Positions 30,201-51,080 of a DNA stretch of 64,000 bases are shown piece by piece. The stretch is from Capitulum mitella. Lineage: Eukaryota; Arthropoda; Thecostraca; Pollicipedomorpha; Pollicipedidae. Each line of letters opens with the position of its first letter. Positions within the stretch are counted from its first letter, which is position 1. The stretch spans positions 36,613,293-36,677,292 of the forward strand of contig CP099839.1 in assembly GCA_030062745.1 (NCBI GenBank). Reading direction: 5' to 3'. The position numbers were made by a program, and so were the translations under genes. The notes beneath the pieces were generated by a model. It had not been told where the DNA came from, did no database searches, and saw only the letters and a list, made by a program, of their open reading frames with translations.

Positions 30201-33200
30201 TACTGCTAAAAGGGGTGGCAGTAAGTTTCTCATCATTATTAATACATTGATTTCATCAAAACTCTGCAAAATAGCGCAATGGAGAAAAAACGAAACAAAG
30301 GCTTTCACCCCATTATGCAAGCACTGCAAAGTGTATGCACAAATCGCTAGCTGAACACAAACCTTAAATCGTATGGATTCACGCAAGAGGACTAGAACAT
30401 CAATTTCCAATCCAATATTCGTTTACGCGTTGCAAATGAAAAAGGATGGTGTGGGATGCCACTTATAAAGTCAACACATCTGGAGCCATGACATGCATAC
30501 GAGCAACCACAGACGAAACATAGTCATCGAAGTCAGCTACCAACACTAGGATCTGTCATATCTTAAAAAAGACCATAACAATTACATAAAGACGACTTTA
30601 GTCTTTGCTTCATCGCCGTCTCTTAAACACGCGCAGTGGAAGGGGGTTTCGCGTTAACGAGCACTGGAAGGGGGGCCAAAAAGTGCCCCCCTCCGATCTC
30701 GGCAACGGAAAGAGCTCGACACAGGGCAAGGCCATAACGATTTACACTGTGTGCAATTTTTATAACCCTAGATCAATATCTTCAAGGTCAAATCGGGTGG
30801 AAAAGGTCAACTTTTGACGCCTCTTCGGCCCGTACAGGCCATTCCATACAACTTTTCGAACGAAACGGGAAAAGGGTGTTTGGCCGTTACAACGAGGCAT
30901 ACGACAACTTCCATCCACTTGGCGTCTTTTGAGTGTAAATAAGGGCGAAACACGTATCTTTTGGCGTATTTTCAGTGATGGTAGTTAACATCCATACATT
31001 TGGTCATCTCCAGCGTTTCTATTTATGTATGTACGTTCATACGTATATATGTATATACTTGTGTATCACTGTGTCAACGTGTTTTTATTAGGGTCTTTGA
31101 ATGCATATTTCATACAAACTGGCATATTGCAAAGCACATCTGGACCAGGTCACAAAACAGTTGCCCTAGACCTTTGATGACGTTGACCCGAAATGACCCT
31201 GGTATATATGTAAGCGTATCCATGTACGTAAACGTGTTTTTACAACGGTCTTTCAATGCATATTTCATTTTTGTTGTTGTTTATTTTTTTAGGTTAGCGT
31301 TTTCGTGGTTGCTTGCCGACCTTCTCCACCTGGTATTTAAGTATCAATGCATTTTTATTTCATACAAACCGACAGGTTGCAAAGCAAATCTGGATCAGGT
31401 CACAAGCTGTTCGACCTTGACCTTTGATGACCTTGACCCTTACTGACCCTGGCTTTGGTCTTGGTACATCCATTACTTATGCCCAAATGACGTCGCGTGA
31501 TTGTGCTCAAACGGTAATCTTGGGTAGAACGCCGGTTCTTTCACAAAGTTCCCGTCAGCGACAACCATCGTTTTCGTTATGGTTGCCTGACTTCAAATGC
31601 TTGAAACTTCAAAAATTTCCGGCCGATTTCCGATTTTTCTGCGTCATTCGACGAGTTATTCATTTGCCAAAACCAGGTGGGGGGGGGGGCACAAAAAGAC
31701 CCCCTTCCAGTGCGCGTGTTAAAAGACAACATAAAACGTCAGGCTGCGTATGGCACTAATCATCGGGACAAAACTTCTTTAACTCTTCATGTTCGCTGTC
31801 CAATGTGTTATACCACTGAGAGATTCGTTTCTTAAACGTTCCGGTACAAATGAGATGACATCAAACCACCATTTAGATACAACCCGAACGCAAAAATTTC
31901 ACTAACTGCGATATTGCAGGCAACCACCTTTGTGCGCATTACTTTTATTGACTGACATTCGTGCTTTACACGTTTCAAGTAACATGAAACACTAGACATC
32001 ATTCCGGCTGAAGCCAACCATGAGTTCCGAACAATGCGTGACGCTAGTTCCATTTAAAGTCCGAGGCAGGGCAGAGTTGCATCGTGTTTAAAAATGTACC
32101 GCGCATCGCAGATGTTCCTCACCCGTACAGATTTCTGAACGCCTGTCCCTGCAGTTTGCCATTCTTATAGAAGCCAATGTAGGCGCCGGGCACGGGTTGC
32201 AGCTTTTCCAGCGTGCCGGGCACGTCATCCTTCTCCTCGAAGTAAAGGTGAGATTTGGACTTGATGAGCGGCTGGAAGCGGATACACAGTCGCCTAAGTG
32301 CTGGCCAAGACGATCCGGACATGCAGGAGAGACACTGGCCCTCTCCAGTAGCATCCTGCAGACATTACACTTGTGACCAACGCAAGTACATCCGGTTACT
32401 GACTCAGGATCTTTTGTTACGCCGCATCGAGCGTTATGGTTCGGTGCTGAGTAACCTCAGTGAAATTTGTGCGGACAATCAGACGCCAGCTCGCGTCTCG
32501 CGGCCCGACGACCGACGCCCTAACCGTTTTAATACCCTGCCCCGACTCAGCACACATCATCACATCAACTCAGCTACGAGTTCGATATAACTGTGAAGTT
32601 TTACCACCTTTTGGCCCCCGACGTCTCAAGCATTTCTTCCATCTCGTCAGTGATAGGGTGTCGACTGAACCAACCAACAACCACCATCGTAACTTCTCAA
32701 CATATGGCACCTCAGGACTGGTGTCAGTGCATTCCATTACATCGCGCTAGGAGGCCTTTCCCATCCTATCCTATCCTAATGCATCCTAAAACAACTGCTT
32801 TGTTGCATCGTATGTTTCGGAGCCACAGTATTATGGCAAGCTTACGAAAACCGGGTCCGCGCTGTTTTCCCGCGCGCCAAACATCTTCACTGGACCGCTC
32901 CTTCACTGGTCCCCCCCAACACCACCACCAGCCACCACCGGCTGCTGGCCGGTCCTGACCCCAGACGCCGGCACGCTGCGGGGCCCACCATGGTCCGAGT
33001 CGTGACCGGCCGGCAGCGAGAGGTACCTTGTCTTTGTAGCTGTCTGGCAGGCGGGCGGGCACGGCCGACTCCGGCAGGTGGATCAGGATGCCGAGCACGT
33101 CACCCTGCTGGTAGCCGGTGCTCAGGTGGCGCCCGCGCGCCTCGTGGAACACCGTGCCTTTCCTGCCGGGCCGGACAGTCGACTGTCAGAACACAATCCA

Positions 33201-35578
33201 CGAGGACGGAAACACCTCGTCAAACTCCGCGCCTTTCCTGCCTGGCCGGACAGTCTAAAGTATGGTCGTGCAGCCACAGAACGAACACATCACATCCATA
33301 CATATATCTCAGTCTGCTTAACGTCTTTGAAAACAAAGGTCACCACAGCACGTCTGAACCGGAGATGCGCCAACATCCCATCTAAAAACGCATCCTGCCC
33401 AAAACAAAACATGCAAATCACCCCCGAACGGTCCTCCCGCCTGCACGAAGACAACCCGGGAGCTATCAAACCAGACATCACAGGTCGGAACAGCACTGCC
33501 ACCCTAGGCAGCAGTACCAGCACTGCCAATCCGGGGACAGGGCGGATGCCGGCCGCACCTGCTGCGCCACGAGTAGCCGAACTTGTCGTATCCGAGCGGG
33601 GCGTTCAGGTTGGCCAGCGGACCGGCCCAGCCGATACGGCAGTGGGCGCCGCTGGGCTGCGCCGAGATCGTCGCCTCCCAGTACCAGGTGCCGCGCCGGA
33701 CCGCGTGCGTGGCGCGCACCAGGCAGTAGCCCTTGTCGCCCGTCACGGAGAGACGGTCGTCCGAGATCTTCAGGCACTGGGCCCTGGCGGCGACGGGTTC
33801 GGGTCAACACTAGAACCGTGTGGCGACTCCGCGACACAGAGCGCGCGTCCCGCTTCACGGTCAGTCAGGTGCTCTGCACCAGTCGCGGCTCCTGACAGCA
33901 GGGGGTGGCACAAGTCCCGCCACTCCCACAGCGAGATCGGCACGCACCACTGGTGAGCCCCCACGCAACACAGATCCCTGACACGGCGCCCCAGGAGTGA
34001 GGGCGTCACGCACCTGTCGTGCAGCGCCAGCAGGACGGCGGCCGGACACTGGGCCCTGTGCAGCCAGCCGGGGATCGGCCGGCCGCCGCTCTCTGACGAC
34101 TCATCAAACTCCTGCCTGTGCCACGGCGCACCACCGTCAGTCACAGACGTCACAACGGCAACTGACCCCACAGCCACAAGATCCCAAACACACGCCGCAA
34201 ATGCAGCTTTTGCTTTCACTGAATAGTCATTGCGACAAGTGGAATATTTTTCGTCATTCTATTAGACAGCTGCTGCAGAATAAAGCAAACACAGACAGTC
34301 CTGATGATTCAGACAAAGAAACTGCAGTTGATGGCTAAACAAGTCAATAAGTACCAATGTCACCACCGCAAATGGCCAATGCTGGCACAAATATAGTAAA
34401 CAAGTTTCAACAGCCACTCCGGTGCAATGCCAGGGAGGGCGACTGACCTGAAGGGCGCGTGCGGGTCCGGCTCCGTCAAGATGTAGCGATAGCCGTCCTT
34501 GTTAAACGGATGGTCCAGCGGATAGCCGTGAAGTTTTTGGACCGCACCCTCGCTGCGCGCCTTCTTAGACCCAGCCGACTGCTCGAGGACCTTGCGCTTG
34601 GGACCACGTGACTTCACTGCTGGAGTGGGCACATAATGCACAGTCGGCAGATGTTTTACATTGAGACAGGATCGACATAAGCCACTTCTTCGTCAATGGC
34701 AGGACGGACAGCGACGAGTCATGGGTGCCTTTGCTCAAATGTTCGGGTCCATGGGCTCCGCCTCAGAGTGCACACATGCACGGCTGGGATAAATCCCTTC
34801 AGAAAGTGGTGAAATCTATTCCAGCCACACGCAAGGTTAGCTGCAGGCAAACTGTCCCTGAATGACGAATACCACATCCAAATCAATTAAAACCAAACAC
34901 GACAAAGCCCTTGGAATAGAACTGAGCCAGCCTCCATCGTGCGGGCCGCCCGGCGGCGGCCGGTGATTGCCACAAGTCCGAGTTAAGAGATACCTTCGTT
35001 CTGACGCTGCTTCAGCTGGTCGTAGTTCGGCCGGATCACCGACAGGTCGGTCTGCCGCAGCCCATACAGCGGGTGGCAGGCGCTCGTGCTGCCATCCGGG
35101 GCGCTCTCCTCGCAGCGGAACAGCCCCGACGAGTCCTTGGCGAGCGTGCGCTGAATCTGCCCGTCAGGGATGACGGTTACAGAGAGCGCCACGATCGTGC
35201 CGTGACACGGAGCACCGAGGCCAGGCCGTGATATCGAGAACCGAGACAAAGCAGTGGCATCGAACACCGAGACAAAGCCGTGACATCGAACACCGACACA
35301 ATGTGACGTCGTGACATCGAGCACCAAGGCAAAGTCGTGACACTCAGCATCAAGCCATGACATTGAGCACCAGGATAAAGCTAAGATGGCAGACTCCAGG
35401 TCGAGGTCAACATAATGCAGAGCTATCTAACTGTGCACTAACACAGGAAAGAAACAACAAATGAGAATGACAAAACATGTAAAAATATGCACACAGGAAG
35501 CAATTTTCAGGGGATAAAATCTAAATGTCTTTCAAAATGGGCTAACTCATCAGGAGAAAGAATAAGAGATGGTCAGGT

Positions 35579-35641
<63 letters not shown>

Positions 35642-35662
35642 ATGTAATATATAATTATATAT

Positions 35663-35695
<33 letters not shown>

Positions 35696-37185
35696 CCACA
35701 AATCACCATCAACTAAACACCTGTAAAAAATACACATGACCATGAAACAATGACAATGATGCATCATGGGCATCATACATCACAACTCATTAGTAACAAA
35801 TGCCTAGCTGAGCAGAAAAATTGGCCTGCCTGAAGAGAAACAAAGGGAGTACTAGCCATACAAAATTAAAAATAAAATAGTGACCATTGCAGCTCATCTT
35901 CTTTGCCTGCAAGAAGTTAGTCAACCACTGTAACTAAAAAAATTCAGCACAGTTAGCCTATTCAACAAGTGATATTTCATCAGATAGTCTAAGACTGCCA
36001 GAGGGCAACATCACCAACCGTCTGTTTCCAGCTCTGAGTGGTGCGGCGTGCCATCGTCGTCATGCCTTCCCAGTGCATCTCTATCCAAGGCACAATGTCC
36101 TTGGCTAGTGAAAATAAGACCCTGCCATCCTCCTTTGAAGCAGCTTGCTGCAGGTTTGCCAGTGCTGTCACACACATCTGGCTGGACTCTGTAGGGATGG
36201 ACAGACTTTGTTGTTTGTCGAGAAATGGAAATGTTCTGAAGAAGACAACCCAAAATCAGTTTTTACAAGTGATCGACTTGAAGCCAGAGCATGCCAGGAA
36301 ACCTACCAGAAGATTACAAGCACTGTTAGCTGCAAACTAATGCAAGTACTAGTCAAAACCAGGCATTGAAAGAACACTGCCAGCTTCATGCTACAAAGTG
36401 TCACTTTCATATGGTTGGATCAAAAGATGACAGCATACCTCCTTCTCAGATGAGAATCAAGTAAGATCAGGAGGCTACTTATCAGATGAGAATCAAGTAA
36501 GATCAGGAGGTATCAACATTAAAATGAGCTTTTGGAGCTGATACATACGGGCCTGGTGCTTCTTGAAGGTCTCGAGTCCTGTGTTGGAGCAGTTGCGGCA
36601 TGTAAAAGTGTAATTAGCCAAGAATGGCACCAGCTTTCCCAGCTGGTAGGAAATGCAAGATTCATGGTGAAACTGCAGGCATCCACTACACTGAAGTTCT
36701 ACGATGTTTAGATTTCTTCCTTTGCCACTGTAAACAAATTTCCCCAGGGAGGGATTTCAGCAAGTACACAAGAGCTAGTATACTTACAACTATGGCCAAC
36801 CCAATTTCTGTCCACTGACATGTAATCTTATGATAAAATAACAACTTCTAGCACCCTCCTTGCAGCCTATTTCAAATTCCATATACCAAAGTCAATATTT
36901 CAATCCTGAAACAAACTCCTGGGACTTCAGAACAACAGTGAAAACTAAACAGTAACAACCACACACTCAAAAACATTACATGCATGACAGGATGTAAAAG
37001 AGATCAACACCTTAAAAAACAAAACACCATAGAACTGCTGACAAAGAGGAGAAACTGGATCTTTATGAATGTGGAACAGACCACTATTACCAGTATCCAC
37101 ATGATGTGAACTCTTCTTTCTGGTCAGTACTGTATGCAGAATGTTTTTCTACACCATCACCAGAATCTTCAATGCCTGATTTCAT
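27261..37185 (-). CDS. ASH2L: ASH2-like, core subunit of COMPASS/MLL histone H3K4 methyltransferases, 11 exons, 529 aa
   Basis: ASH2L joins WDR5, RBBP5 and DPY30 to activate SET1/MLL enzymes in the nucleus. Exons in transcript order: 37185-37091, 36727-36549, 36188-36019, 35156-34994, 34619-34448, 34115-34014, 33783-33559, 33162-33027, 32271-32123, 28517-28415, 27356-27261. They sum to 1,590 nt with all phases matching. Order: atypical PHD finger with C29, C32, C45, C48, H53, C56, C75 and C78 ([13 protein letters not shown]), winged-helix region ([17 protein letters not shown], about 95-200), a Lys/Arg linker (GPKRKV), then SPRY ([56 protein letters not shown]). The C-terminal helix [14 protein letters not shown] corresponds to the DPY30-binding segment. 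An in-frame TAG precedes the chosen ATG. The exon 3 donor is the weak GTTGGT, chosen because it keeps phase and family alignment (WKQT-IQRTL). Confidence 0.93.
28520..29045. repeat. Degenerate GTCACACAGTCAC minisatellite in ASH2L intron 9
   Basis: About 500 bp of loosely repeated units such as GTCACACAGTCACGGCAGG, GACAAACAAGTCAC and their variants, with a period near 30 bp, start right at the upstream side of ASH2L exon 10. They form the acceptor-proximal part of the 3.6-kb intron 9. Confidence 0.6.
29226..29387. mobile_element. MITE-like element, CAGGGGCGCAGCC termini, copy 2
   Basis: This 162-bp block starts CATAGGCGCAGCCAAGG and ends TCCTGGCTGCGCCCCTG, forming terminal inverted repeats. 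Internal sequence (TTTTTGTGAAAACCATTGCA, CGTTTTCGCAT, CAGTTCACA.TGAG) is shared with 7147-7305 in the same orientation. It lies within ASH2L intron 9. Confidence 0.7.
30654..31722. mobile_element. Second TTAA-flanked non-autonomous element, in ASH2L intron 9
   Basis: A TTAA at 30654-30657 is followed by CGAGCACTGGAAGGGGGG..GTGCCCCCC. A TTAA at 31719-31722 is preceded by the inverse (GGGGGGGCACAAAAAGACCCCCTTCCAGTGCGCGTG). TTAA target duplications suggest the piggyBac superfamily. A further, nested-looking end (TTAA plus ACACGCGCAGTGGAAGGGGG) sits at 30623. The inside has two internal direct repeats (about 31078-31205 and 31228-31268/31360-31455, each ending in TTTGATGAC.TTGACCC) and no transposase frame. 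Confidence 0.6.
33141..33255. repeat. 75-bp-period tandem duplication covering the ASH2L exon 8 acceptor
   Basis: Bases 33141-33180 and 33216-33255 are near-identical 40-mers (CTCGT..AAC.CCG.GCCTTTC then CTGCC.GGCCGGACAGTC). Each contains the acceptor and first exon bases read on the minus strand. The inner copy at 33162 is the functional exon 8 boundary. The outer copy is a decoy that would read into a stop within one short exon. Confidence 0.8.
35190..35380. repeat. GTGACATCGAACACCGAGACAAAG minisatellite in ASH2L intron 3
   Basis: Six or seven degenerate copies of an about 30-bp unit (GTGACATCGA.CACCGAGACA with variants) start shortly above the acceptor of ASH2L exon 4 (exon boundary 35156). 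Confidence 0.75.
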
Positions 37186-38650
37186 TTTTAATGGCTACTG
37201 GAACAAAACAGAAGAAAACCATCAACATTTTGTATTATGCATGAGAGCATGCCATCATACAAGAGAAGTGAAAAACATAAATGCAAAATGCCCATAACTG
37301 GGCTAATTCATGGTACTCCTAATACCAACCCATCTCATTCCTTCCAGTCAAACTAAGGAAACATGACTGCATGACACTGGGGTATTAGTAGGCCACAAAC
37401 AGATGTCTAGCAGCACCAGTCACTTTTTCATTTAGATAACTGTACAGTGCGCACATTATCTCATCCTTGCCATGTAATGCCAGCCTGAAAACCATTTTTA
37501 ATAACTTATTTCATCTTACTCCTCATTCTAAATGAGTTTTACACATTTCTCGGCACTTCTGTGGGTTTTCATATTTTCTGTTGCTAACATAACACCTTTT
37601 TGTACAGGCAATACAACCTCAGTTTTCTTGACTTTACCAATAGCCAAATATAAAAGATCACAGGTTATCATATCTTTAAAGGATCAATGCATCCCAGGTA
37701 CTCAAAGCAATAACACAAGATATCCTGAAGTGCACAGCCATCATTTGCATTGTATGCAATATGTGGAACATTTGCGCAAGTGCAATGTACATCTTGCAAT
37801 GCAGACTTACAACAGTGAAAAGTTGCAAAGTTATACAAATGGCCATCTGTAAGTGCACCATTGCATACTTGCAAATAGTGAGAACATCTGTTGCTTATAC
37901 TGCATGTTATAAATTGATTTATACTGAAGCAGGCCTTAAAAACATTAATGGGCATGTTTCTACAAGGACAAAGATAACACATTTATGAAAGCATGAATGG
38001 CAAAACCAAAAAGCATTAATTTTGACTAGTAAATGCATACTGGCGGCTCAAATGTCAAAAAGAACATGTTGTTCTGCTTCATACATTTTTAGTTAGCTCA
38101 GCAATGACCATTCAATGGGGTTTTTCTGATTTTCTCAGTCACCTTCCTTTCCTGAAGATAACTGGGCCCTAACATTTCCTTGACTGTCAAGGGATACATG
38201 TACCTCACACAAGCCAAGGTTAAAACAAAATCATCATGTTTATAAAAAAAATTGGAATTTGCACCCTTACAGTATTCCATGGCACCATGAAGGAAATCTG
38301 GCATTTTTACTGCATGGGTGTAGAACTGGGACAGATTTTGGTATGGAAGAATAGATTCAAGTTGTCATTGTGACGTTGATCATGTACTTAAACTACCTAG
38401 ACAGGAAAATGCATGAATGGGCCTGGTTAGGAATTCCATACCAATGACTTCCTTCGGTATGGAAAACTCCATATCAAAGGTATACAAAGTTACCACCCTG
38501 TTGTATCATTTAAATGCACTTGTACACATGATAATTACTAAAACATTGAGTTGTTTGTGAGTTACGATACACAGGTTCTTGAGCTCAGACAGCTAGTCCT
38601 AATTTAAGTTTTGTGCTTACCAATTCACCAGTCAGCCGTCTGCAAATGTG
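35381..38650. other. CpG-depleted domain over the 5' part of ASH2L
   Basis: From intron 3 to upstream of exon 1 the sequence has very few CG dinucleotides but abundant TG and CA. I count 6 CG in the 1,080 bases 37441-38520, against 15 CG in only 300 bases at 17101-17400 in FRRS1-like intron 4. The domain coincides with the transcribed 5' half of ASH2L and ends near 38700. Confidence 0.7.
35583..35695. repeat. (TA)n microsatellite, two blocks
   Basis: Long uninterrupted (TA)n at 35583-35634 and about 35671-35695, separated by a TAATTATA-rich spacer, in ASH2L intron 3. Confidence 0.95.
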
Positions 38651-38775
38651 AAGTTTGTTTGTTTGTTTGTTTGTGAGTTAGGACACCTCTTGCCTCTTGG
38701 GCTCAGGTGTCCAAAGTCTTGGGTCCAGTCCTGTGTCTCGTCGGGCGTCAGTCAGTCGTCTGCAAATGTGAAGAA
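38560..38775. repeat. Degenerate direct repeat with (GTTT)n
   Basis: CAGTCAGCCGTCTGCAAATG (about 38630) and CAGTCAGTCGTCTGCAAATG (about 38750) are copies about 120 bp apart, each preceded by GTTTGTGAGTTA-like sequence. A (GTTT)n tract lies between them at 38655-38673. Confidence 0.7.
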
Positions 38776-39300
38776 AACCCTAAACGTAACGAAAATAAGC
38801 GTCATTTAGCGTGTTTACTTTCAGCCGTGCGGCGCGTAACGCGCTCGTAGTTCAGCACGGGTGGAATCCGTGAGACTAACTGACGGATGGTAATTACAGG
38901 CAAGCCAGTACTCCAAACTCTCTGAAGAAATCGATACCAGGTTCCTTTTAATCGAGGTGTCATATGCAAGTTACTATTTTTTCCGGAGCCTGATGACATG
39001 TAGGTGAGGACAATTAGTCTGGTCGGTGCCATAGTATCTGGGCACAAGACGGGCCACAGTGGATAACGCTGGTTTTCGATGCGTTTCGATGATACCGACT
39101 TGACCTGAAAGAAAAGTAAATCGCATAAGGTGCGACGCTTAGTGAATGTTTAAAATAACAGTCGGTCATCCGCAGCCCCGAGGAATGAGGTCGCCTGCAG
39201 CCGAAATCGGTAATTTATGTCGCTTTCATTGGCTAATGGCTGACCTTGCCAGCCTGCTGGTAGTTTTGTTGTACTGGAGGTTATTGACCTGACCTGAGGT
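38776..39300. promoter_or_regulatory. Candidate divergent promoter of ASH2L (-) and NOPCHAP1/ANKRD49 (+)
   Basis: This is the only stretch with ordinary CpG frequency (GCCGTGCGGCGCGTAACGCG and neighbours) between two CpG deserts that flank it. ASH2L starts to its left on the minus strand and NOPCHAP1 to its right on the plus strand. CpG retained between methylated gene bodies is what a constitutively unmethylated promoter leaves. Transcription start sites cannot be seen directly. Confidence 0.45.
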
Positions 39301-39893
39301 TATCAAGTTCCGCGAAAAAAGGGAAATTGCACATGGTTCATCGATTGGTAAGGGTTTGGTGGTGATTTGTTTGATGCTATCAGAGCATTGGAATGCCTGC
39401 AACTTGGGTTTAGCAAGAACCGGAAGTTTCCGTGGAGTTTTGTTGATTTCTGATGTGACCTAGGGTCACCAAATCCTGTGAAATGGGGGTTTTTGGAATA
39501 CCATTTCGAGGAATTAGAAGTTGAGGTCAATCAATCAAACATGCTTGTAGCTTCGGGTCACATGTATTTATCACCTGTCGTTTAGCCCCACAGAGTTGTA
39601 GCTCCGAAATTCTACCCGACGTTGGTACGTGGTAGATCGGTGACACACGTGCTGTGTGGGCTGGACACGCGAGGTACGGCTGAATGGTTATTGCAATGGT
39701 CAGTTACGGTTTGGATGAAGGCTGTTCGGATGTTCATTGCAAATGCACGTATAAACATACATACTGAACTCAGCTGCCATTTTGTCTGACTTCTTTACAT
39801 CTTGTTTTAGTGACGTGCTATGTATCTAGCTGAGTACTCTGGAAAGCCACCTGGAAGCTTTTCGTCTGTTTTTCTGGCACAAATTGTGAAGCG

Positions 39894-40877
39894 TATGGTG
39901 CAATGCTTAGTCTGGCCTGTAAGCATTTGGTCACCCTGCTCCCAAGAGTGTTTTGGATGGATTGGGTAAGGGAATGTTTTGCCATCATTAAAAGGGATGT
40001 CCTGCCTTGGTTGAGTTTTCACAAGTAGGCAAGGTTGGTTGGAAAAGTATTGTTTCTGCCATTTTCATTACTCATTTTGTGAATTGTGCAGGCATACACC
40101 AAATGATGTCATGCTGGCCTGTAGTCAATGAACTCAAAAAGTTATTGATATGAGATGTCATGCAGAAGCTGTAAATAGTGCACAGTTGAGAGGATGCTTG
40201 AGAGTTATGGAATGTTGGATTGACCAGTACCATAGGATTAACCCTCCATAGAGAAAAGTTTTAAGACAAATGTTACAGGTAGGCTTTTAAGGTGGCAGGT
40301 TACAGTATAGCCATCCCATTTTCAAGCTTGTGTCAAGGTGGGTCATTTCCAGTACTTGGCTTTGGAACTAGGGCAGGATCAAATCATGAACCTGGAATTC
40401 CTCTGCACTGTTAAGATAAAATGCATGTCAGTGCATGGAAAGAAATGTCTTTAAGGCCACTGCTGCTCCCTTGCAACATATATCTGCTAGGATATTTGCC
40501 TATGCCCCAGATTGAAAGATTTGCAATTGCTTAGTAAATTTGGTTTAGCAGGACCCATTTTCCATTTGATTTCTTTATCATGAAATTTCTTGCTTTCATT
40601 GCTTTCATGTTCAAAATATTGTGTAATCATTAAGTTGATGTCAGATGTTCAGCTAACATTGCAGTTTTATTTTCCAAAGCAAATGATACTTTCATCCATT
40701 CATTTATGAGGATGGCTGAGCAGTTTTTTAAGCTGTTGAATGTGCATTTCATGCATACTGGTTTTGTTTTAGGACTGGTTCATTATGTGGTAGCTCTGTT
40801 GCCATGGCCTCTGACCATTGCAAATCCAGCAAGACATCATCTGATCTGCTGAGTGCTGGTGTGCAGGGCTCAGGTGT
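39894..40877. other. 984-bp stretch without any CpG, upstream of and into NOPCHAP1
   Basis: No CG dinucleotide occurs between 39894 and 40877. It probably corresponds to a 5' UTR intron plus the start of the NOPCHAP1 exon. A good acceptor (GGTTTTGTTTTAG, ending at 40772) lies 31 nt before the NOPCHAP1 ATG. CpG density jumps sharply inside the NOPCHAP1 ORF. Confidence 0.75.
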
Positions 40878-41268
40878 CGAATCACTGCTGCTGTTGAAGA
40901 AGCCCCCGGCAGTTGGCGAGCACACCACATTTCGCGTACCACCCAGCTCTCTGCTCGACCGCTGTCGCGCCTTCCTGCCCCGCATGCGCGAAGCTGAGGC
41001 AGAACTGCACCAAAGGGTAGCCGAGGGTGGCGCCGACTGTGTCAGTATTGAGGCCGACGACTCAGCACGGCCGCACATTGAGCTGAACCTAGGCCTGTGT
41101 GAATTCGAGTCGAGTTCGAGCGACTCGGACTCGGACTCGGACGCCGAGGCGGCCAGCGGCGCCGAGGACGCGCCCGTCGGCCCGGTGACGGCCGACAACA
41201 TCCGACTGCCGGGCGCTGCCGGCCGACGGCTGGTGACCGAGCTGCCGGCCGCCGACGACCGCCACTGA
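40804..41268 (+). CDS. NOPCHAP1: NOP protein chaperone 1 (C12orf45-like), 154 aa
   Basis: In humans NOPCHAP1 links NOP58 to the R2TP/RUVBL1-RUVBL2 machinery during box C/D snoRNP assembly. The ORF is uninterrupted, with ATG in a good context (GTTGCCATGG). Family landmarks: SSLLDRCRAFLPRMREAEAEL (aa 49-68, matching the LLD..FLP.M segment), the conserved IELNLGL stretch (92-98), a Ser/Asp acidic tract (99-114, matching the acidic region of the human protein) and DNIRLPG (131-137, DNIKLP in human). Length is close to the human protein (about 185 aa). A likely 5' UTR intron acceptor ends at 40772. The stop is followed after 11 nt by the ANKRD49 start, so both may share an mRNA. Identity rests on these short motifs in correct order. 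Confidence 0.82.
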   Translation: MASDHCKSSKTSSDLLSAGVQGSGVESLLLLKKPPAVGEHTTFRVPPSSLLDRCRAFLPRMREAEAELHQRVAEGGADCVSIEADDSARPHIELNLGLCEFESSSSDSDSDSDAEAASGAEDAPVGPVTADNIRLPGAAGRRLVTELPAADDRH

Positions 41269-41279
41269 ACGCGGCGGCG

Positions 41280-43476
41280 ATGAGCGACAGCGACTCTGAG
41301 GGCAGCGCCGCCTCCGAGCCGGACCTGGAACAGCTGACGCGCCAGGCGGCCGAGGCCAAGCTGCTGCGGGCCGCCTCGGGGCGCGGCTCGTCCGGCGAGG
41401 ACGACGCCGAGGCCGAGCGTGACGTCGACAGGCACGGTGAGCGGCCCACTGACTGGGACGAATGACAGGAACAGCCCACTGACAGGGACGACGTGCATGC
41501 CCTGTCGGGTGCCATTGACCTAAAATAGTCACGGGGAATGTATAAGCTCGACTGTGTTATCTCGTGCCTCTGTAAAAGCAAGCGTCGGATTTGCAAATGC
41601 AACGCAAAGCATGCCTTGTAGAGATGTTTCTTACCTGCAGTTGACACGGATGTTGCAGATCGACTGTCGGCCGCTTACGCTGGGGTTGGATACCTTTGCA
41701 GAATCGCCCAGTGGGGAGCTGTTGTGGACGGCGGAAAGGGGTTTGAAAGACCGAGTCAGCCGTCTGCTGCAGAATGACAGGACTCTCGTCCAGGCGCGGG
41801 ATGACGATGGTTACACGCCACTCCATCGTGCTGCTTACAACGACCACGCCGAGATAGTGGAGGTATGGTGCATAGTAAATTCATTGCCTTGCCCTGCTGT
41901 ATCTGAGCCTCATGTGCATAACACATGGTTTTTGTTGTATTCAAGTTGGAAGATATTTCCTTTGGTTGTCTTAAGGCTGTGTATGAATTCTACGCTTGCC
42001 GGGCGCCAGCTTTCCAAAGCTGTCATTTGAAGGCGTGCCGTGAGTGCTCTTTGTGCGCTGGACGTTGTCGCGTCTGGCGCTCGGATGTTTGACGGGGGGC
42101 CCGTGTTGCCGCAGCTGCTGCTGGCTGCGGGGGCTGACCCGGCCGCCCGGACCGGCGAGCTCTGGACGCCGCTGCACTCGGCCGCCAGGTGGAACTCGGT
42201 CGCCTGCATCCGGCTGCTGGTGCTGCACGGAGCTGACGTGAACGCCGTCACATCCGGAGGTTTGTGTCGTGGCTCATGTGCTCGTACTCAGGCATTTGAA
42301 TGCGAGCGAGACCATGGGCTGATTGAGCCTTACGTCATCTAGCAGAAAAACTGAACTGAATGGCCAGCGCTGCTCGACCTGGTCCTTACCACTTTGTAGA
42401 GGGTACGAACTTCATAACCATTGGTCACAAAATTGTAAAATGCTCCTTAGAAACCAGACAATTTCTTGAAATCGATGCATTCACACAGCAAAGCTTGCAA
42501 GCTTGTTCGCTCACAGGGCTGCCGAGGGGAGTGTTTTTGCTCTATTGTTTTCATCTCCGTTTTTCAAGCTTAGTTATCGTAGCCAATATTGGCGCCCCTA
42601 ACGGTTAAACTTGCAATTTCTTGGCTCACAAAATACCGAAAGCGATCGATAAATGGCTGTTTGCATCCCTAAAGACAAAATGGGGAGGTGTAATATGTCA
42701 GCAGTATTGTTGATATACATCAAGACTTAGAAACTAAATGGCCACGCTTTTCATACGCCCCACGAGGTGCCTTGCTGGTTACTGGACCTTTATTTTGGAG
42801 GTAATTTCGTGCTCTTTTTCTTTGTCGTATATCTTTTAATCAGTGATAGCCTTTACATATTCATGTTAATATACACATTGTTGGCTGTTCCCTATACAAG
42901 TCATTAATAGACCTGTGTTTTCGGATCCCAATGAAATGCGGTTTTCCACGTTGTGCGCCCTGTTCTAAGGTGACTGGGGCAAGTGTTTTGTCATGTAGGC
43001 ATCTTTTTGCTCTGCCGGGAGTCGGCGTTTCCGAGGTGAGGCAATGACGTTCCGAGGTCAGCGAAGGGGTCGATTCAAGGCGAGGATGTCCTTCGTTCCG
43101 TCAGGATCTAGGCAGGTCAGCAAAGGGGTTAGTACAAGACGAGGATGCCCTTTTTCTGTCATAATCCAGCCTCATGTCTGGCCATGACTTGTTGTTTATA
43201 GGGGGCTGCAACGTTAGTTTTTGTCCGCCCGGAATGTCGATGCACGGGCACCGGTTCTGATTCTGTGGATGCATCTTGTGCCCAGGCCTGACGCCACTGA
43301 TGGTGGCCACCTCTAACGCGAGCGCGCGAGACGCCTGCTTCCTACTGCTCAACACGCCCGGCGTGAAGCTGGACGCCACCAACGACAGTGGCGACACGGC
43401 CGTAGCCATCGCCGCCCGCTCGGCCGCCATCATGCCGCTCTTCGAGATGGCCGAGCCGTACATGACCGACATCTGA
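41280..43476 (+). CDS. ANKRD49: Ankyrin repeat domain-containing protein 49, 4 exons, 217 aa
   Basis: Exons 41280-41436, 41702-41862, 42115-42259 and 43286-43476 sum to 654 nt with matching phases (1, 0, 1). The N-terminus is acidic and Ser-rich (SDSDSEGSAASEPD). Ankyrin repeats follow: GELLWTAERGLKDRVSRLL (57-75), DGYTPLHRAAYNDHAEIVELLLAAGADP (88-115), ELWTPLHSAARWNSVACIRLLVLHGADVN (120-148), LTPLMVATSNASARDACFLLL (156-176), and a final TAVAIAARS helix. Repeat order and the short C-terminus match ANKRD49 (human 239 aa), for which a nuclear regulatory role has been proposed. The start at 41280 is the only in-frame Met before the donor at 41437, and the upstream 11 nt separate it from the NOPCHAP1 stop. 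Confidence 0.88.
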
Positions 43477-45988
43477 GCCCAAAGCCGGACGTGTGATGTC
43501 AGGTCCGTTGTGGACGTCAGAGATCCGTGGCAGGCAGAGGAGGCTGGTGGCACCGGCGTCTGGCTGCAGGGGGTGTCCGGTGAAACTCGTCCTCTCACAG
43601 GCCGTTCCGTGCCAATCGACGGTGGAATGGGGAATGTATGAGAATGTGTTGATGGCATGCTGTTGCTGGTTTTCGATCTGTGGTTGTATTTACATAAAAT
43701 ACACAGAGAATTCATCGGAAGGACCTGTAAATCGTATGATATTTGAGATGTCGTAAGAGGCGTAGACAGGACTTTGCCAAAGATGGGACTAGTTTAGTAA
43801 GAACAAAAACAACCCGACCCCGCTCAAAGTAGAACTCTCCAAATCGTGTCTATTTTATTATCAAACAATGGATTTCTTCTCACTTTTGGTGTGTAAAGAA
43901 ACGTCGCACCTCCGACCCAGGTGGAGTCGGAGGTGGTGTCCTCCCCTTCCCACTGGCTATGTCAATGGATGTCGCCACATCTAGGCGCGTGTTGGAATCT
44001 GTTTGGTACGTGACGTACTGGATGCCGATGATGTGGCTAGCAGTGTCTGGCCGCGTATCCGGTGCGGACCGGCGATTGTGCTGATGTCATAGCACAGCAA
44101 TGCTGCAGCTGGCGGCGAATTTTAACCGAATCCCCGCCGCGACATGCTAAAACAGGGCAGGCGTCGGGCAGCAACGTCTCTCGCCGTGTGCTCTGCCTTC
44201 AAGTTGGACGGAAAGACATTCTCAGGACCAGTTGTTTTGTCTACTTTGATGAGTTTGATTAAGCGCGTTCTCTTTCAATAGCGGTAATAAGCGACTGTTT
44301 GATGCCATGAGAGTAACCCACGCCAGACCCCAACCACTGCTCAGTGAACTGTGAATTACGAAGCGTGCCTCAAAATTTTAACCAACAGGATAAGTAGTAA
44401 TAACGGGCACCATCCACTGCAGCGAAAACAATGGCATCTGCCGAAGCTTGGCAAGGAATGGAATTTCTCCCCAGCAATGGGCTTGGCAGGGACGTAGCCA
44501 AGGGGGCTATGCTCCCCCCTGAACTAAGTGGTCTACACTGGATACATAGCGATTTTGCACGAACACATTACAGTGATCATATATATGTTGCAAACACAAA
44601 CATTAGATGTGTTCCTGTGCATTACATAGGAGGCAAATTGCATGAAATTGCTGCTTTTTCCTATAAATTTTGTCATGTCAGTGGCATATGACAAAATTTG
44701 GCATTTGTCCCCCTCCACCAAGGAAAGTCCTGGCTAAGTGCCTGGGGCTCGGCATTGGTCCTAGGCTGCAATGCCGATTATATATGGTACATTTAAGCAG
44801 AGGAGCTCTTCGGCAAGTTGACTACGGTCCAGAGGGTATATTGGGGTATTCCTCGCTGATGTATTTCTGCGTGAACCAAATGCCATGTTTGTTGCACGGG
44901 GCTAAACCACTAACCACTTGCAGTTTAGTGTTGCAAATGTAACACGAAAAAGCCTGAAATCTAAAATCAGTCCTGTGGCTATGCTCGGAAACCACGGACC
45001 TGAGCTCCCTTCCCGCCAGGCCCGCCCGAAGTTTCTTGTTTTCGTTACAGGCAAGCAGTCCGCTAAGGCAATTCTGGTTGTCTAGACGTACGTGAAAAGG
45101 ACATTGCAAATGTCAGCTGTTGCAGTAGATATCGTGTACTATTACAGTCGATTCTAAGTGAATTCCCGTTTCTATCAACTTTAAGACTGATTTTTCCTGG
45201 GAATGGATTCGCACCGACCCCAGATATGTCTTCCAATTTTCTAGATGCCAAAAATGCCGAACTTAGCGTATAAAAGTTCAATCATACGAAAAAGAAACGC
45301 CATGTCATATGTAAGGACAGATAGGTACAGCGTCGACGTTGATTTGAGATTAGCACCGTTTTGCCGTAAACAGAATGTCGCTCTTCTTGGCAACAAATGT
45401 GTATGAGGAATTTTGGCAAAGCTATGTGTAACAGTCCGCAGATTTTTAACCAGCATCTTTCGCTATCGATTTTAATTCCTTGATGTTACTTTCAGGAAAT
45501 ACGAAAAAGTTCAAAATCTTTACACATTGACTACTGATGCCTTTCATCACGTTTAAGCGAAAATAATCCATTTTCGCGATACCCGGGCCTAAATTTTCAG
45601 CGTAGGTACCCAGTCTTAAAAAGCATTATTTGTGCTCCACCGCATACTGCCACTAAATGGTGCCAATCCATTTCAGGTGCACCACAAAGGCCTCAAATGC
45701 GCAAATGGGGAGGAAGAGCCTTGGTGTGTATTGGGTAGGCTGTATGAGATGGAGTAGAGTGGTGTTGTTGAGACCTACGAGTGGATTTTGTGCTATTGTG
45801 ATGGGATGTCGAAGACGGCTTCTGACTTTTCGTGCAGCATTCCTTTGAAATAGCGGATATGAAATTTTCTTCGTTTTGGAAAGTTGTTGAAATTGAACCC
45901 AGGCTACTATAGACTGCGTATCGTTAAGTAAGACAGCACTGTGAATTGATAAAGTTACTGTACCGTTGCTGATGCAAGACAGTGGTAG
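43477..45988. other. ANKRD49 3' region and AGAP 5' flank, no further gene seen
   Basis: Apart from the MITE-like element at 44487-44744 I see no coding exon. CpG frequency is ordinary up to about 45980 and then falls at the first AGAP exon, so the AGAP promoter may lie in the right part. Confidence 0.4.
44487..44744. mobile_element. MITE-like element with CAGGGACGTAGCCAAGG termini
   Basis: The block starts CAGGGACGTAGCCAAGGGGG and ends CCCCCTCCACCAAGGAAAGTCCTGGCTAAGTGCCTG, so its ends are imperfect inverted repeats (CAGG.AC.TAGCCA). Termini resemble those at 7147 and 29226 but the interior differs (AT-rich), suggesting a related subfamily. Confidence 0.5.
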
Positions 45989-48900
45989 ATGCTTCAGCCA
46001 TTTTCCAGAAAGGGTAATGGGCTTTTGTATGAAGAAAATCTGAATGAACTCCAATCAAGCTTGCCAAGGATGTCCTCAAGACCTCACATGCCTTTCTTTT
46101 CAAACTCCCATGCCATCAGGCAGGAGATACAGCGCTTTGAAAGTGTTCATCCCTCTATCTATGCAATATATGAGTTAATCGAGCATGTCCAGGATCCAGC
46201 ATTAGCCCAGCAAGTCCGTGAACATGTTGTATGCATAGAAGGTAAGCAGAAGTCATCAGTCAGTTCTGCATGGCATTGTTCACTGCTCTTTGTGTCATGT
46301 GCCAGCTACCACAGGGTTTTGGACTGTGGGTAGCTGCCCACTATGATTTGGACAGTATGAACATGTTCTTCACTTTCCATGGGGCATGGAATGCAATACC
46401 TGTAAAAATTGCTTTTGGTGCAAATAACAAAAACATGTCATCATTTGTGGTGAGCTCCAAAACAACTAGGCACTGTGGTATATGTCATGGTTCTGAGTGT
46501 ACCCAGATCTCATTTTGTGCACACTTGTATGTTGGATTATTCTGATACAAACTATGTAAGTTTTTTCAGGATATGTTAATAAGGCTGCTGGAAGTATTAC
46601 CTTTAGCACTAATTAAATCGTTTGTTGTGCTGGTTGCAGTGAAAAGTATGGTTTTCTGTACTTCTGTGGATGCAGCAGATGTTTCAGGGCCATATTCTGA
46701 TGTAGCACTGACTAAAGCATGCCTAAGACAGAATATTGATGAGGAGAAATGATTCTGCTTTAATTAATGAAAATTGCAAAAATTGGTGTGTAACTTGGTG
46801 TGACATCCTCTGAAGCACAGTTTTCATTAGTATGCCATTAATGCTGGAAGTTTTGTTTAAATTGTCTGTATGTAATTAAGACTGACATAAAATGTTTAAA
46901 CTGAGTAAAAAAGAAAATAGGAAAATAAGTGGCATGATGAAATGCACTCAGTTTAGAGGATTTTAAGGTCATTGTTGTCAGCCCAGTAAAATGATTAAAA
47001 AGATCAGATGTGCATCCATATTTGCAGATAAAAGCACTGGACTCCTGTTTGTTGTAATAGGTAATGTGTTGGATTACAATGATGACCACTCCAGGGGCAT
47101 AGTGTTCCAGGCCAACTGCATTCTACTGAGCTTTCTGACATGTTTTGTGGAGTTTCATTTCATTGAGGTATCACACATATGTGCCATCATGGAAATGGGA
47201 CTTTTAGGCACACAGAAAAATAGCTTGGTGACAAAAGAAGTGGCAAACATATAACCGCAATGACAGTGGTACATGGATGAGGCTTGGGGATGGAGGATAG
47301 AGATATGATGGCAGGCTTCCAGTCAAGGACAGCATTTAGTAAGGCACTGGTCTCAGGCACAAGGCCCCCCTGAAAAAAGGCAAGGCTAAGGGTACAACAA
47401 AAAATGTTGAGTGTGGTGCAGATCACTGCAGCCATTCCTTTGCAGCACTTGAAGCAAGAACTCAAACTGAAGGGTAAAGGGCTAAGTTCTGTGAAGGGAT
47501 GGAAAAGGCTAGGAGTGCAAATGAAGAATGAAGGATTCTCAGCATCATGACTGAGTCATTCAGCACTCAAATTAAGTTCATAGCATCATGTACTGGAAAT
47601 ATAGAGATATTATGCTAATAAATTGGATCATTTAATTACATTGTCATTGTTCATTGGCCCTGTGCAGTGCTTAGAAGCCTACCAAAATGATCAAACATGG
47701 CCACATAAAATATGCAAAGCAGTCTGTCACTGTTCACCATTTATTGCTACATGCTGATCTGTGTGAACACCTTGCCTGACACTGATTGTTGTGCAGGTCA
47801 CTGTGGCTCTGTGTTCATTGTCTTGTGATGTCTCCCAAGAGCTAGCAGTTTTAAACCCAAAACAGAAAGTGTTGCTCAGACACCCAGTCCATGTGGTGTG
47901 TTTTCTGACATGATTGCAAAATAATTGCAAGATGTCTGCATATCTTCTGGTTTAGTGCTTGGGGAAGAATTAATCCACACTTGCACCAATGTGGTCAGCA
48001 GGCCATGGTTTGTACAACAGACATTGTTTTGCTCATTGAACCCTGGTTGAAATATCATCTTTGAAACACACTAGTCAAGCTTACAGTAATGTGCTGGTTC
48101 ATTTTATGTTTGTGTTGTTTAAATATTTACTGGCCCAAAAGGGAACAATCCATATTTATAAGTGTCTTAAACCAAGATAACCAATTCATAGTTTGTAGTC
48201 CCGGAACCCATCATGCAATGTGCATTGTATCCTGCAGTTCCTTTTTTCAACATTTTCAGGGGTTCAAAGAAATCTCACATGGTTTTCCTGTCATTCTGCT
48301 CAGCTATGTCCAGTTTACAGCCATTACATGTCACAAGTGGGCACAGGCCCTTGGATGCTTGCCTCTGACCTTCATCAAGTCATATTGGAGAATGGCTACC
48401 ACAGAAACCTTTTAATGATACACGTTTTCTAAAGCCTGACACTTTTCATAACTTTAGCCCTGGGAACATTAGCAGCAACATTTTTGCAGACTAGCCAAGT
48501 CCATTTATTAAAAGGTGACCAAACTGAAACATTTCTTTAGAAACACATCATTTCTTACCTTCTCAGTTCACAACCAGATATGCCAAAATGATTATGCACT
48601 TGCTGCAATGTGAAAAATAATCATATTACACATACCTCTGTGGGCTGGTAATGAATTTTGATTCTGATATCATTCACCAGTGAGGAGTAGATATGACGTG
48701 TCTCACAATTAGCAGACTAGTTGTTGCCACTGGGGCTCACAGGGGTGACACACTTCTTTTTCCTTGCTTGCATTTCTCATGAGATCGGTTTGTCCTGTTT
48801 TGGAGCCAGGTTGTGGCTTTTGTGTCCTGTGTTTTCCCTGTACTGTATGCATAAAAAAGACAAAATTGGTGCAGTTTGCCTTAAAGCTGCTTCAGTTTCC

Positions 48901-51004
48901 AAAATGTCATGCAAATTCAAATTATATTTTCAAAGTCCTTGAAGTGCAAAACAGAAACATTATTCTGAACACAGTCCACAAAGTCTCTGCAATGAGGTGG
49001 TCTAGATTTTAAGCAAGCTGAAATGTGGCCTCAGATTCATCATGCAGAACAAGGAGAGGGGCCAAAAGGCAAGCAACGCCCTCCGGCCAAGCGCGAAAAT
49101 TTTGGATGTTGTGTGAACACTGTGGAGACTCGCTAAGGGCATGGGCGCAGCAAGGCAACAGCGGGCCGGATCGCGGAAGATCACATTCTTTTCTTCTCAT
49201 ACAAGATCACCATTCATCAGAAGCATTTCCGGACTCACGGCTGCAGGCCGGAGCCCGGTTTTTACAGCGCTCGTCCTTTGATGAAGTGTGACGCTTCGGG
49301 ATCCTTTGCGGAGAAACTGTGGTTTTCTGAGGAAGAGCATTTTCACCGTGATGGGTCGCGTAAACGGCCAGAACTACAAATTCTGGTCTACTGAACCACC
49401 AGAAGAAGTTGTTGAGCAGCCTCCCCACAGCCGGAAGTGCACTGCATGATGTGTCATGAGTGCGCACAGCATCGTGGGCCCATTGTTTTTAAATGACTCG
49501 GACGGCCAGTGCGTCATTGAATGTCGTGATGCATCGTGGACGTGTCATATCTTGGTCGTGGAAGAGCATCACACACAGGCGTGGTGTCAGCCTTGCAGAA
49601 CCAGTGGTCCCAGCAAAATGGTGCAAGTGCTCACTCACTACTCTCTCTAGGAGGTGGCTGCGAGATAGGTTTTGCGCGTAACTTGTCTTGTCTCAAGAAG
49701 CCAATCTCATGGGCCCGTCATTCTCCGGACCTGGCCAAGAACTCAGCGGGGCGATCTCGTCAGCTGTCCGTGCTGTTCCACGATCAGCAGGGGGCGCTGT
49801 GATCCGATCCGCCAAACGTCGAGCGTCTCTGTGCCTGCAGAGAAAGGGCGTTCATCCATGGTACTAAGTGTGTGGTACCTGAAGAAGTGAAGGAGGAGGA
49901 ACGGTATGCAGTGCAAACAGTATTTCTCATGGTATATGTTGAAGCTTACAAACTAATTGTTGTCAGTACACTCCGTACATTGGATTGAAATATGTCCGTT
50001 GTTTGTGAGACGCCCTAGATATTCATGGATGTCCTTACATGGACATGGGAAACCACTTACTGAAACAAATAACTGCATTTAAGAGGTTAGCCGTATAGTA
50101 CACATAAATAGGATGCTTGGAATGGACATCAGACACGAATTTGGCCGAGACCGTATTTTGACGGAGGACCTTGTCGTGATTTGAAATGCACTAATGTTCT
50201 GGTTTCACACGTCATCTTCTGTTTTTTGTTTCCTGTTGCAGTTCAGTCCGAAAAACTACGGCCTCCGTGCAAATTTAAAAATAACGTCGCCATACGTGCA
50301 GCACGGAGGGACGGGGAATAGAAAGTGCACACAATGTTCCAAAAAGAGTTTGCTCGGAAATGGCGATCGATTGCAAGTCTGCTTGTGTTGACCGGGGTTC
50401 GAAGATTAGCTCGCTATGAATTGACTATTAAACAGCTATTACCGATTTTTTGCCTTTTTGTTATTGCTGCATAAATGAGTAGAGGCAGTTACAAAACTGT
50501 GTGCCAGAGCACCGAGCACTAGCAGCGAAAACCGCACAGAATTGGGAACTTGGTGGCCATGCAGCTTCCGAATTATAATGTATAATCGTTATGCATTACA
50601 CTCACCATTCCTGTTTCCACCCAAAAGAGAATCTTAGCCAAAATAAAGCATAAGACTGTCGCACGCCGCTGGCGATTTGCCGGAGACCATTGTACCTTTT
50701 GGTCGCGCGGGCACGCACTTGTGGGTGTTTGCGGCTAGCCGACCGCTCACCGTCCGCGGTCTCCGTTGCAGACTCGTTCGTGAACAGCCAGGAGTGGACG
50801 CTGAGCCGGGGCGTGCCCGACCTCCGTCTGGGCATCGTCGGTAGCCTGAGCTCGGGCAAGTCGGCGCTGGTGCACCGCTACCTGACCGGCTCCTACATGC
50901 AGGAGGAGTCACCAGAGGGCGGCCGCTTCAAGAAGGAGATCGTGCTGGACGGCCAGAGTCACCTGCTGCTAATCAGGGACGAGGGCGGACCACCGGAGCT
51001 GCAG
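45989..51004 (+). CDS. AGAP1: Centaurin-gamma/AGAP Arf GTPase-activating protein, first two coding exons (partial)
   Basis: AGAPs combine a Ras-like GTP-binding (GLD) domain, PH, ArfGAP and ankyrin repeats and act in endosomal traffic. Exon 1 (45989-46241) encodes [24 protein letters not shown], the hallmark AGAP N-terminus. Exon 2 (50772-51004) encodes [18 protein letters not shown], the P-loop GSLSSGKS (aa 108-115), the switch I region ([14 protein letters not shown]) and [11 protein letters not shown] (switch II). The junction is phase 1 and the exit phase 0. A TAG immediately precedes the ATG at 45989, but an acceptor (CATTTTCCAG) ends at about 46008, so the real start may be Met28 at 46070. 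The next exon is not found before 64000, so the following intron exceeds 12 kb or the assembly is interrupted. AGAP1 versus AGAP3/CenG1A cannot be decided. Confidence 0.88.
46242..49020. other. CpG-depleted domain, AGAP intron 1
   Basis: Bases from exon 1 to about 49020 carry almost no CG. After the one near 47256 the next I see is near 48202. CpG frequency is restored abruptly near 49070, well before exon 2. There is no sign of coding sequence inside. Confidence 0.7.
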
Positions 51005-51080
51005 GTAAGGACTGCTGGACGGCCTGAGCGGCCTGCTGCTAATCAGGGACGAGGGCGGACCGCCAGAGCTGCAGGTAAGG
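50941..51080 (+). repeat. 70-bp tandem duplication of the AGAP exon 2 end and its donor
   Basis: Bases 50941-51010 and 51011-51080 are two near-identical copies (TGCTGGACGGCC.GAG..., CTGCTGCTAATCAGGGACGA, GAGCTGCAGGTAAGG). The first copy ends at the expected donor after ELQ. The second supplies another intact GTAAGG 70 nt later. Use of the second donor would add 70 nt, which changes the reading frame of all downstream exons. Confidence 0.92.

Follow-up and report, generated by a model that had tools for sequence, protein, structure and literature searches.

A candidate dicistronic NOPCHAP1-ANKRD49 transcription unit in a barnacle genome

In animals it is uncommon for a nuclear gene to be dicistronic and to encode two conserved proteins, and every well-established example adds to our understanding of how a second ORF is reached by ribosomes. 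The genes described include Drosophila uORF-mORF pairs such as MOCS2 and CG9960-CG9958 with snapin, and the human SNURF-SNRPN, CERS1-GDF1 and RPP14-HTD2 (PMC2276209, PMC4705651). A related arrangement is the ASNSD1 mRNA, where an upstream ORF encodes ASDURF, a subunit of the PAQosome (PMC9406135). For the viral ORF35-ORF36 mRNA of KSHV a translational route has been described, in which a short uORF lets ribosomes reinitiate at the second ORF; there, a start codon 16 nt after the uORF was not strongly inhibitory for the second ORF, while one at 246 nt was (PMC3561293).

The locus that we describe lies in a window of 64,000 nucleotides, bases 36,613,293-36,677,292 of contig 1 of a barnacle genome (477,042,490 bases searched, 16 contigs), and the gene content of the window is that of an animal. 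Two ORFs follow each other closely on the plus strand, NOPCHAP1 and the first exon of ANKRD49. Our best reading, to which we give a probability of about 0.65, is that they belong to one dicistronic transcription unit. In human the two genes are on different chromosomes. A literature search found no papers that name both ANKRD49 and C12orf45, and none of the matches listed has the NOPCHAP1-ANKRD49 pair as the subject of its title or the opening of its abstract.

The NOPCHAP1 ORF (40804-41268, plus strand) is 465 nt long and encodes 154 aa, from the start codon in gttgccATGG to a TGA at 41266-41268. In a Pfam profile search its residues 50-121 match PF15370, the NOPCHAP1 family, with an E-value of 9.8e-12 and 45.7 bits, above the model cut-off of 27; the match covers model positions 1-74 of 110. 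It is the single match in the 477-Mb genome, where 7 of 7 candidates were scored. A codon-usage model, trained on 757 codons from ASH2L, AGAP and ANKRD49 exons 2-4, finds the ORF after 40878 to be coding in its own frame (score 44.1, best antisense 20.5, z 5.9), with a weaker coding signal before 40878 (z 1.8). The C-terminus can be aligned to its end with the human protein at 30% identity, using an approximate human query. The lone PDB match, malyl-CoA lyase, has an E-value of 0.26 and was judged to be due to chance.

ANKRD49 consists of four exons with GT-AG borders throughout and encodes 217 aa. Exon 1 (41280-41436, plus strand) begins at an ATG with G at -3, encodes an acidic N-terminus and ends at the donor ACG/GTGAGC; codon usage finds it coding in this frame (score 35.5, best antisense 24.2, z 6.2). 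Exons 2 (41702-41862), 3 (42115-42259) and 4 with the stop codon (43286-43476) are also on the plus strand; human ANKRD49 is 50-51% identical over exons 2 and 3 and 39% identical over exon 4 (E 0.054), again with an approximate query. The protein matches Ank families of Pfam at an E-value of about 1e-23, and its ANKRD49-like ankyrin repeats and acidic N-terminus point to an orthologue of ANKRD49. With 150 of 169 candidates scored, a genome search gave 39 matches, of which the top four are the gene's own exons, and the next ankyrin locus by E-value has 39% identity (E 2.3e-11). The original prediction had allowed that ANKRD49 might begin at another exon. The candidate checked was a longer exon 2 with its start at 41611, but 41611-41701 scores as non-coding (z 0.1) and the start stays at 41280, the sole ATG in the ANKRD49 frame within 40804-41300.

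The ORF coordinates confirm that the NOPCHAP1 stop codon and the ANKRD49 ATG are 11 nt apart on the same strand, as predicted. The gap, ACGCGGCGGCG (41269-41279), holds neither an AG nor a poly(A) signal, and the further claim that it leaves no space for a poly(A) signal or a 5' UTR also stands. By codon usage NOPCHAP1 and ANKRD49 exon 1 are both coding (z 5.9 and 6.2), as both ORFs of a dicistronic gene should be, with a change of frame at the junction. A hexamer search of 40700-44500 turned up neither AATAAA nor ATTAAA, and seven variant poly(A) hexamers are all absent from 41269-41701. Variants are present in ANKRD49 introns 2 and 3, at 41874, 42648, 42868 and 42930, and the only ones of the nine hexamers searched that occur in 43477-44500 are CATAAA at 43693 and AATACA at 43698 (43693-43703, plus strand), which may serve as weak signals. 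Since the coding stretches are continuous except for the 11 nt, a NOPCHAP1 transcript that is not cleaved early must include the ANKRD49 start. The spacing, the missing AATAAA and ATTAAA, the lack of an evident intron between the ORFs and the single CpG-free 5' block described below all support the proposal of a dicistronic mRNA. In such an mRNA the NOPCHAP1 stop codon would lie 168 nt ahead of an exon junction, and under the mammalian rule the mRNA would be a candidate for NMD, which counts against the dicistronic reading.

Might the closeness of the two ORFs come from a collapse of GC-rich DNA during assembly, or from a recent local rearrangement without transcriptional meaning? The GC content reaches 0.80 in the region of the junction, and we worked with one assembly. 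However, neither ORF is broken before the junction, the alignment of the NOPCHAP1 C-terminus described above extends to its end, the window contains no N and a second NOPCHAP1 match was not found, and for these reasons we regard an artefact or accident of this kind as highly improbable.

Other ways of joining or separating the two ORFs were also considered. A trans-splice acceptor before ANKRD49, as in a spliced-leader operon of the nematode type, was not found, as the 11-nt gap has no AG and no AG after 40946 and up to 41279 has more than 8/15 pyrimidines. Readthrough of the NOPCHAP1 stop codon into ANKRD49 is ruled out because the frames differ and a second TGA follows at 41281-41283. This second in-frame stop overlaps the ANKRD49 start codon as ATGA, probably by chance. 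The termination-reinitiation motif TGGGA, known from viruses, is absent from 41100-41280. The z-scores (-1.57, 0.02 and -0.34) do not support an unusual RNA structure at the junction or near the uORF described below, and Rfam has no match in the window at gathering scores.

The CpG content of the region bears both on the number of transcription units and on where ANKRD49 transcription begins. The CpG observed/expected ratio of the window is 0.89, falling to 0-0.31 in three blocks. CpG is nearly absent from these blocks of 1-3 kb (35402-38374, 39892-40878 and 45964-49077), which are found at the 5' parts of three genes. The first (~35.4-38.4 kb) covers the 5' part of ASH2L, a divergent neighbour with exons at 28409-36711 on the minus strand, and the third (~46.0-48.8 kb) the 5' part of AGAP (centaurin gamma), whose 5' exons lie at 46100-51004 on the plus strand with the first at the edge of the block; the queries for both genes were approximate. 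The second, at 39.892-40.878 kb, is a CpG-free stretch of 986 bp that runs up to and into NOPCHAP1 and takes in a presumed 5' UTR intron together with 75 nt at the start of the ORF. No separate CpG-free 5' block belongs to ANKRD49: within 40879-45900 no gap without CpG is longer than 190 bp.

The original prediction had noted that NOPCHAP1 is CpG-free at its start and CpG-rich in its 3' half, and had taken this jump as a possible sign of an internal promoter for ANKRD49. The contrast is real and marks the edge of the 986-bp block; the promoter does not follow from it. An ANKRD49 promoter inside the NOPCHAP1 coding region (~40.9-41.27 kb) would give a monocistronic mRNA, either alone or alongside a dicistronic one. 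Compact gene pairs often have nested promoters, the 11 nt leave nowhere else for an ANKRD49 5' UTR, and in 100-bp bins of 40900-41399 the CpG observed/expected ratio is 0.76-1.55 and the GC content 61-80%. Yet the rise in CpG is a return to the usual level of the genome, with no island: in 400-bp bins of 40801-46000 the ratio is 0.63-1.38 in 12 of 13, the remaining bin (44401-44800, after ANKRD49) having 0.37. The missing 5' block of ANKRD49 also speaks against a promoter of its own, as do comparable CpG-free gaps elsewhere in the genome. A gap of at least 470 bp, a threshold that was chosen after seeing the gaps, is present at 5 of 8 proteasome loci (5 kb) and in 3 of 40 random 5-kb halves (Fisher P 0.0015); at 500 bp the counts are 4/8 and at most 3/40. 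Of 25 PF00227 matches, nine begin at profile position 7 or earlier; eight of them make up the set, and the ninth (on C6, with a stop inside) was left out. The 40 random halves were obtained by splitting 20 arbitrary 10-kb loci, of which 2 have a gap of at least 470 bp. Gaps at the proteasome loci were counted near the first domain exon, and the 5' end of the gene was placed at one locus alone (L027), where the start codon precedes the CpG-free block and the block therefore lies within the gene body.

A study of Daphnia and other arthropods reports methylation mainly in exons 2-4, declining toward the 3' end (PMC6097596). Two loci of the barnacle genome match DNA methylases. Given these observations and the excess of gaps at proteasome loci over the random control, we infer that the CpG-free blocks are old footprints of 5'-biased gene-body methylation. 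The CpG jump in NOPCHAP1 is then the end of a footprint and says nothing for an internal promoter, which we consider unlikely.

The dicistronic reading, on the other hand, fits the distribution of the blocks. ASH2L has a CpG-poor block and so does AGAP, while the NOPCHAP1-ANKRD49 pair is preceded by a single CpG-free block, and a single footprint for the pair is what one transcription unit would leave. As 3 of the 8 proteasome loci have no gap of at least 470 bp, the absence of a block at ANKRD49 is only moderate evidence. CpG-free blocks may also serve as a cheap, sequence-only marker of the 5' parts of genes, or of 5' gene-body methylation, in this genome, which would help to distinguish a single transcription unit from a pair.

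Some further features of the window deserve mention. ASH2L and NOPCHAP1 are arranged head to head (36500-39900), and the DNA at ~38.8-39.9 kb between their CpG-poor blocks is CpG-normal, as a shared two-way promoter would be. At 50943-51080 a 70-bp tandem duplication with 91% matches repeats the end of an AGAP exon and its splice donor, resulting in two candidate donors. An endonuclease-reverse transcriptase domain (PF14529, E 5.5e-16) on the minus strand at 320-913 is probably part of a non-LTR retrotransposon.

If the pair is one unit, transcription would start in the CpG-normal DNA between ASH2L and NOPCHAP1, ahead of the CpG-free block. A 5' UTR intron would then be spliced out at a presumed acceptor (40751-40772, plus strand) that ends in GGTTTTGTTTTAG and has 11/15 pyrimidines, the best of the 11 AGs in 40600-40803. 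The following exon would run through the entire NOPCHAP1 ORF and the 11-nt gap to the end of ANKRD49 exon 1, and would be spliced at 41436 to the remaining ANKRD49 exons. The mRNA would end after 43.5 kb, as suggested by the splice sites and by the lack of an earlier poly(A) signal of the usual kind.

The same promoter could also give two splice forms, one of which uses an acceptor inside NOPCHAP1, e.g. the AG ending at 40946, and so loses the NOPCHAP1 start codon to become an mRNA for ANKRD49. This AG has 11/15 pyrimidines, equal to the presumed acceptor at 40772. It has little company among the 28 AGs in 40804-41279, the next best having 10/15 and 9/15 after a purine and the rest at most 8, and even in this form the in-frame ATG at 40984 would still precede ANKRD49; we think such a pair of splice forms very improbable.

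A dicistronic mRNA raises the question of how its second ORF would be translated. With G at -3 and +4 the NOPCHAP1 start codon has a strong context by the vertebrate Kozak rule; it is not the weak first start that leaky scanning of a bicistron of the green-algal type calls for, and simple leaky scanning should therefore be inefficient. The only other ATG between the two starts (40984-40986, plus strand) is in the NOPCHAP1 frame and has C at -3. NOPCHAP1 has no out-of-frame ATGs where about 3.2 are expected from the rate in 15 other exons (17 in 2435 nt), but we do not accept this depletion as proof of selection, as P is 0.53 by synonymous permutation and 0.14 by codon order. Reinitiation after the 154 codons of NOPCHAP1 is likewise expected to be poor: the predicted limit given in a review is 55 codons, followed there by an exception of 102 codons (PMC4705651).

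The leader may hold another possibility. If the presumed acceptor at 40772 is used, so that the leader includes this region, a candidate two-codon uORF, ATG TGG TAG with A at -3 (40785-40793, plus strand), is present closely before NOPCHAP1. Its stop codon lies 10 nt before NOPCHAP1, 190 nt before the ATG at 40984 and 486 nt before ANKRD49. Complete uORFs of at most 10 codons are found in 773 of 9139 31-mers of the window and in 268 of 5000 shuffles of the leader, and this one may therefore be due to chance.

We hypothesize that the uORF allows ribosomes to bypass NOPCHAP1. NOPCHAP1 itself would be made by ordinary initiation at its strong start codon, and ANKRD49 by ribosomes that do not initiate there. 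The likeliest course is that some of these would translate the two-codon uORF and, unable to reinitiate just 10 nt further on, resume scanning, pass the weak ATG at 40984 and start at 41280. Direct leaky scanning, or reinitiation once the 154 codons have been translated, would contribute little. The KSHV result suggests a caution: lying 190 nt after the uORF, the ATG at 40984 might capture some of the reinitiating ribosomes.

In the HSP90-R2TP pathway, NOPCHAP1 assists in bringing NOP58 to RUVBL1/2 (PMC9406135). Fly Ankrd49 is described as forming complexes with Bdbt, a protein of the FKBP family, each raising the level of the other, and as acting via casein kinase I; nulls are lethal, and the authors report that their data gave no evidence of a chaperone model (PMC7402468). 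If real, the arrangement would pair a PAQosome cofactor with a poorly understood protein and would suggest a shared chaperone-related role, although such a theme linking NOPCHAP1 and ANKRD49 is suggestive only. A more speculative and rather improbable extension is that a dicistronic mRNA ties the snoRNP-assembly chaperone NOPCHAP1 to ANKRD49, and that the two-codon uORF sets the ratio of the proteins by an ATF4-like bypass, thus co-regulating ribosome-assembly capacity and the ANKRD49-casein kinase I route through initiation factor activity.

How does this locus compare with the known systems? It shares with the animal dicistronic genes two different proteins per mRNA, presumed in our case (PMC2276209, PMC4705651), while their joint transcripts have been reported and that of NOPCHAP1-ANKRD49 is inferred from sequence. 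As in ASNSD1/ASDURF, the first ORF encodes a protein of the PAQosome (HSP90-R2TP) pathway (PMC9406135); ASDURF, however, is a prefoldin-like subunit and NOPCHAP1 a cofactor guiding NOP58 to RUVBL1/2, and ANKRD49 is unrelated to ASNSD1. Green-algal bicistronic loci likewise have few ATGs ahead of the second ORF, a short first ORF (median 357 nt in C. reinhardtii, against 465 nt for NOPCHAP1) and a short gap (medians of 183 and 40 nt, against 11 nt), but the start context of their first ORF is weak where that of NOPCHAP1 is strong (PMC11892635). KSHV ORF35-ORF36 offers the parallel of short uORFs in the 5' UTR, after which the second ORF is reached by reinitiation (PMC3561293), although this viral case was shown by experiment and the barnacle locus has the arrangement alone. 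NOPCHAP1-ANKRD49 is a new candidate for a known arrangement, the animal dicistronic gene, and at the sequence level the case for a single transcription unit is good.
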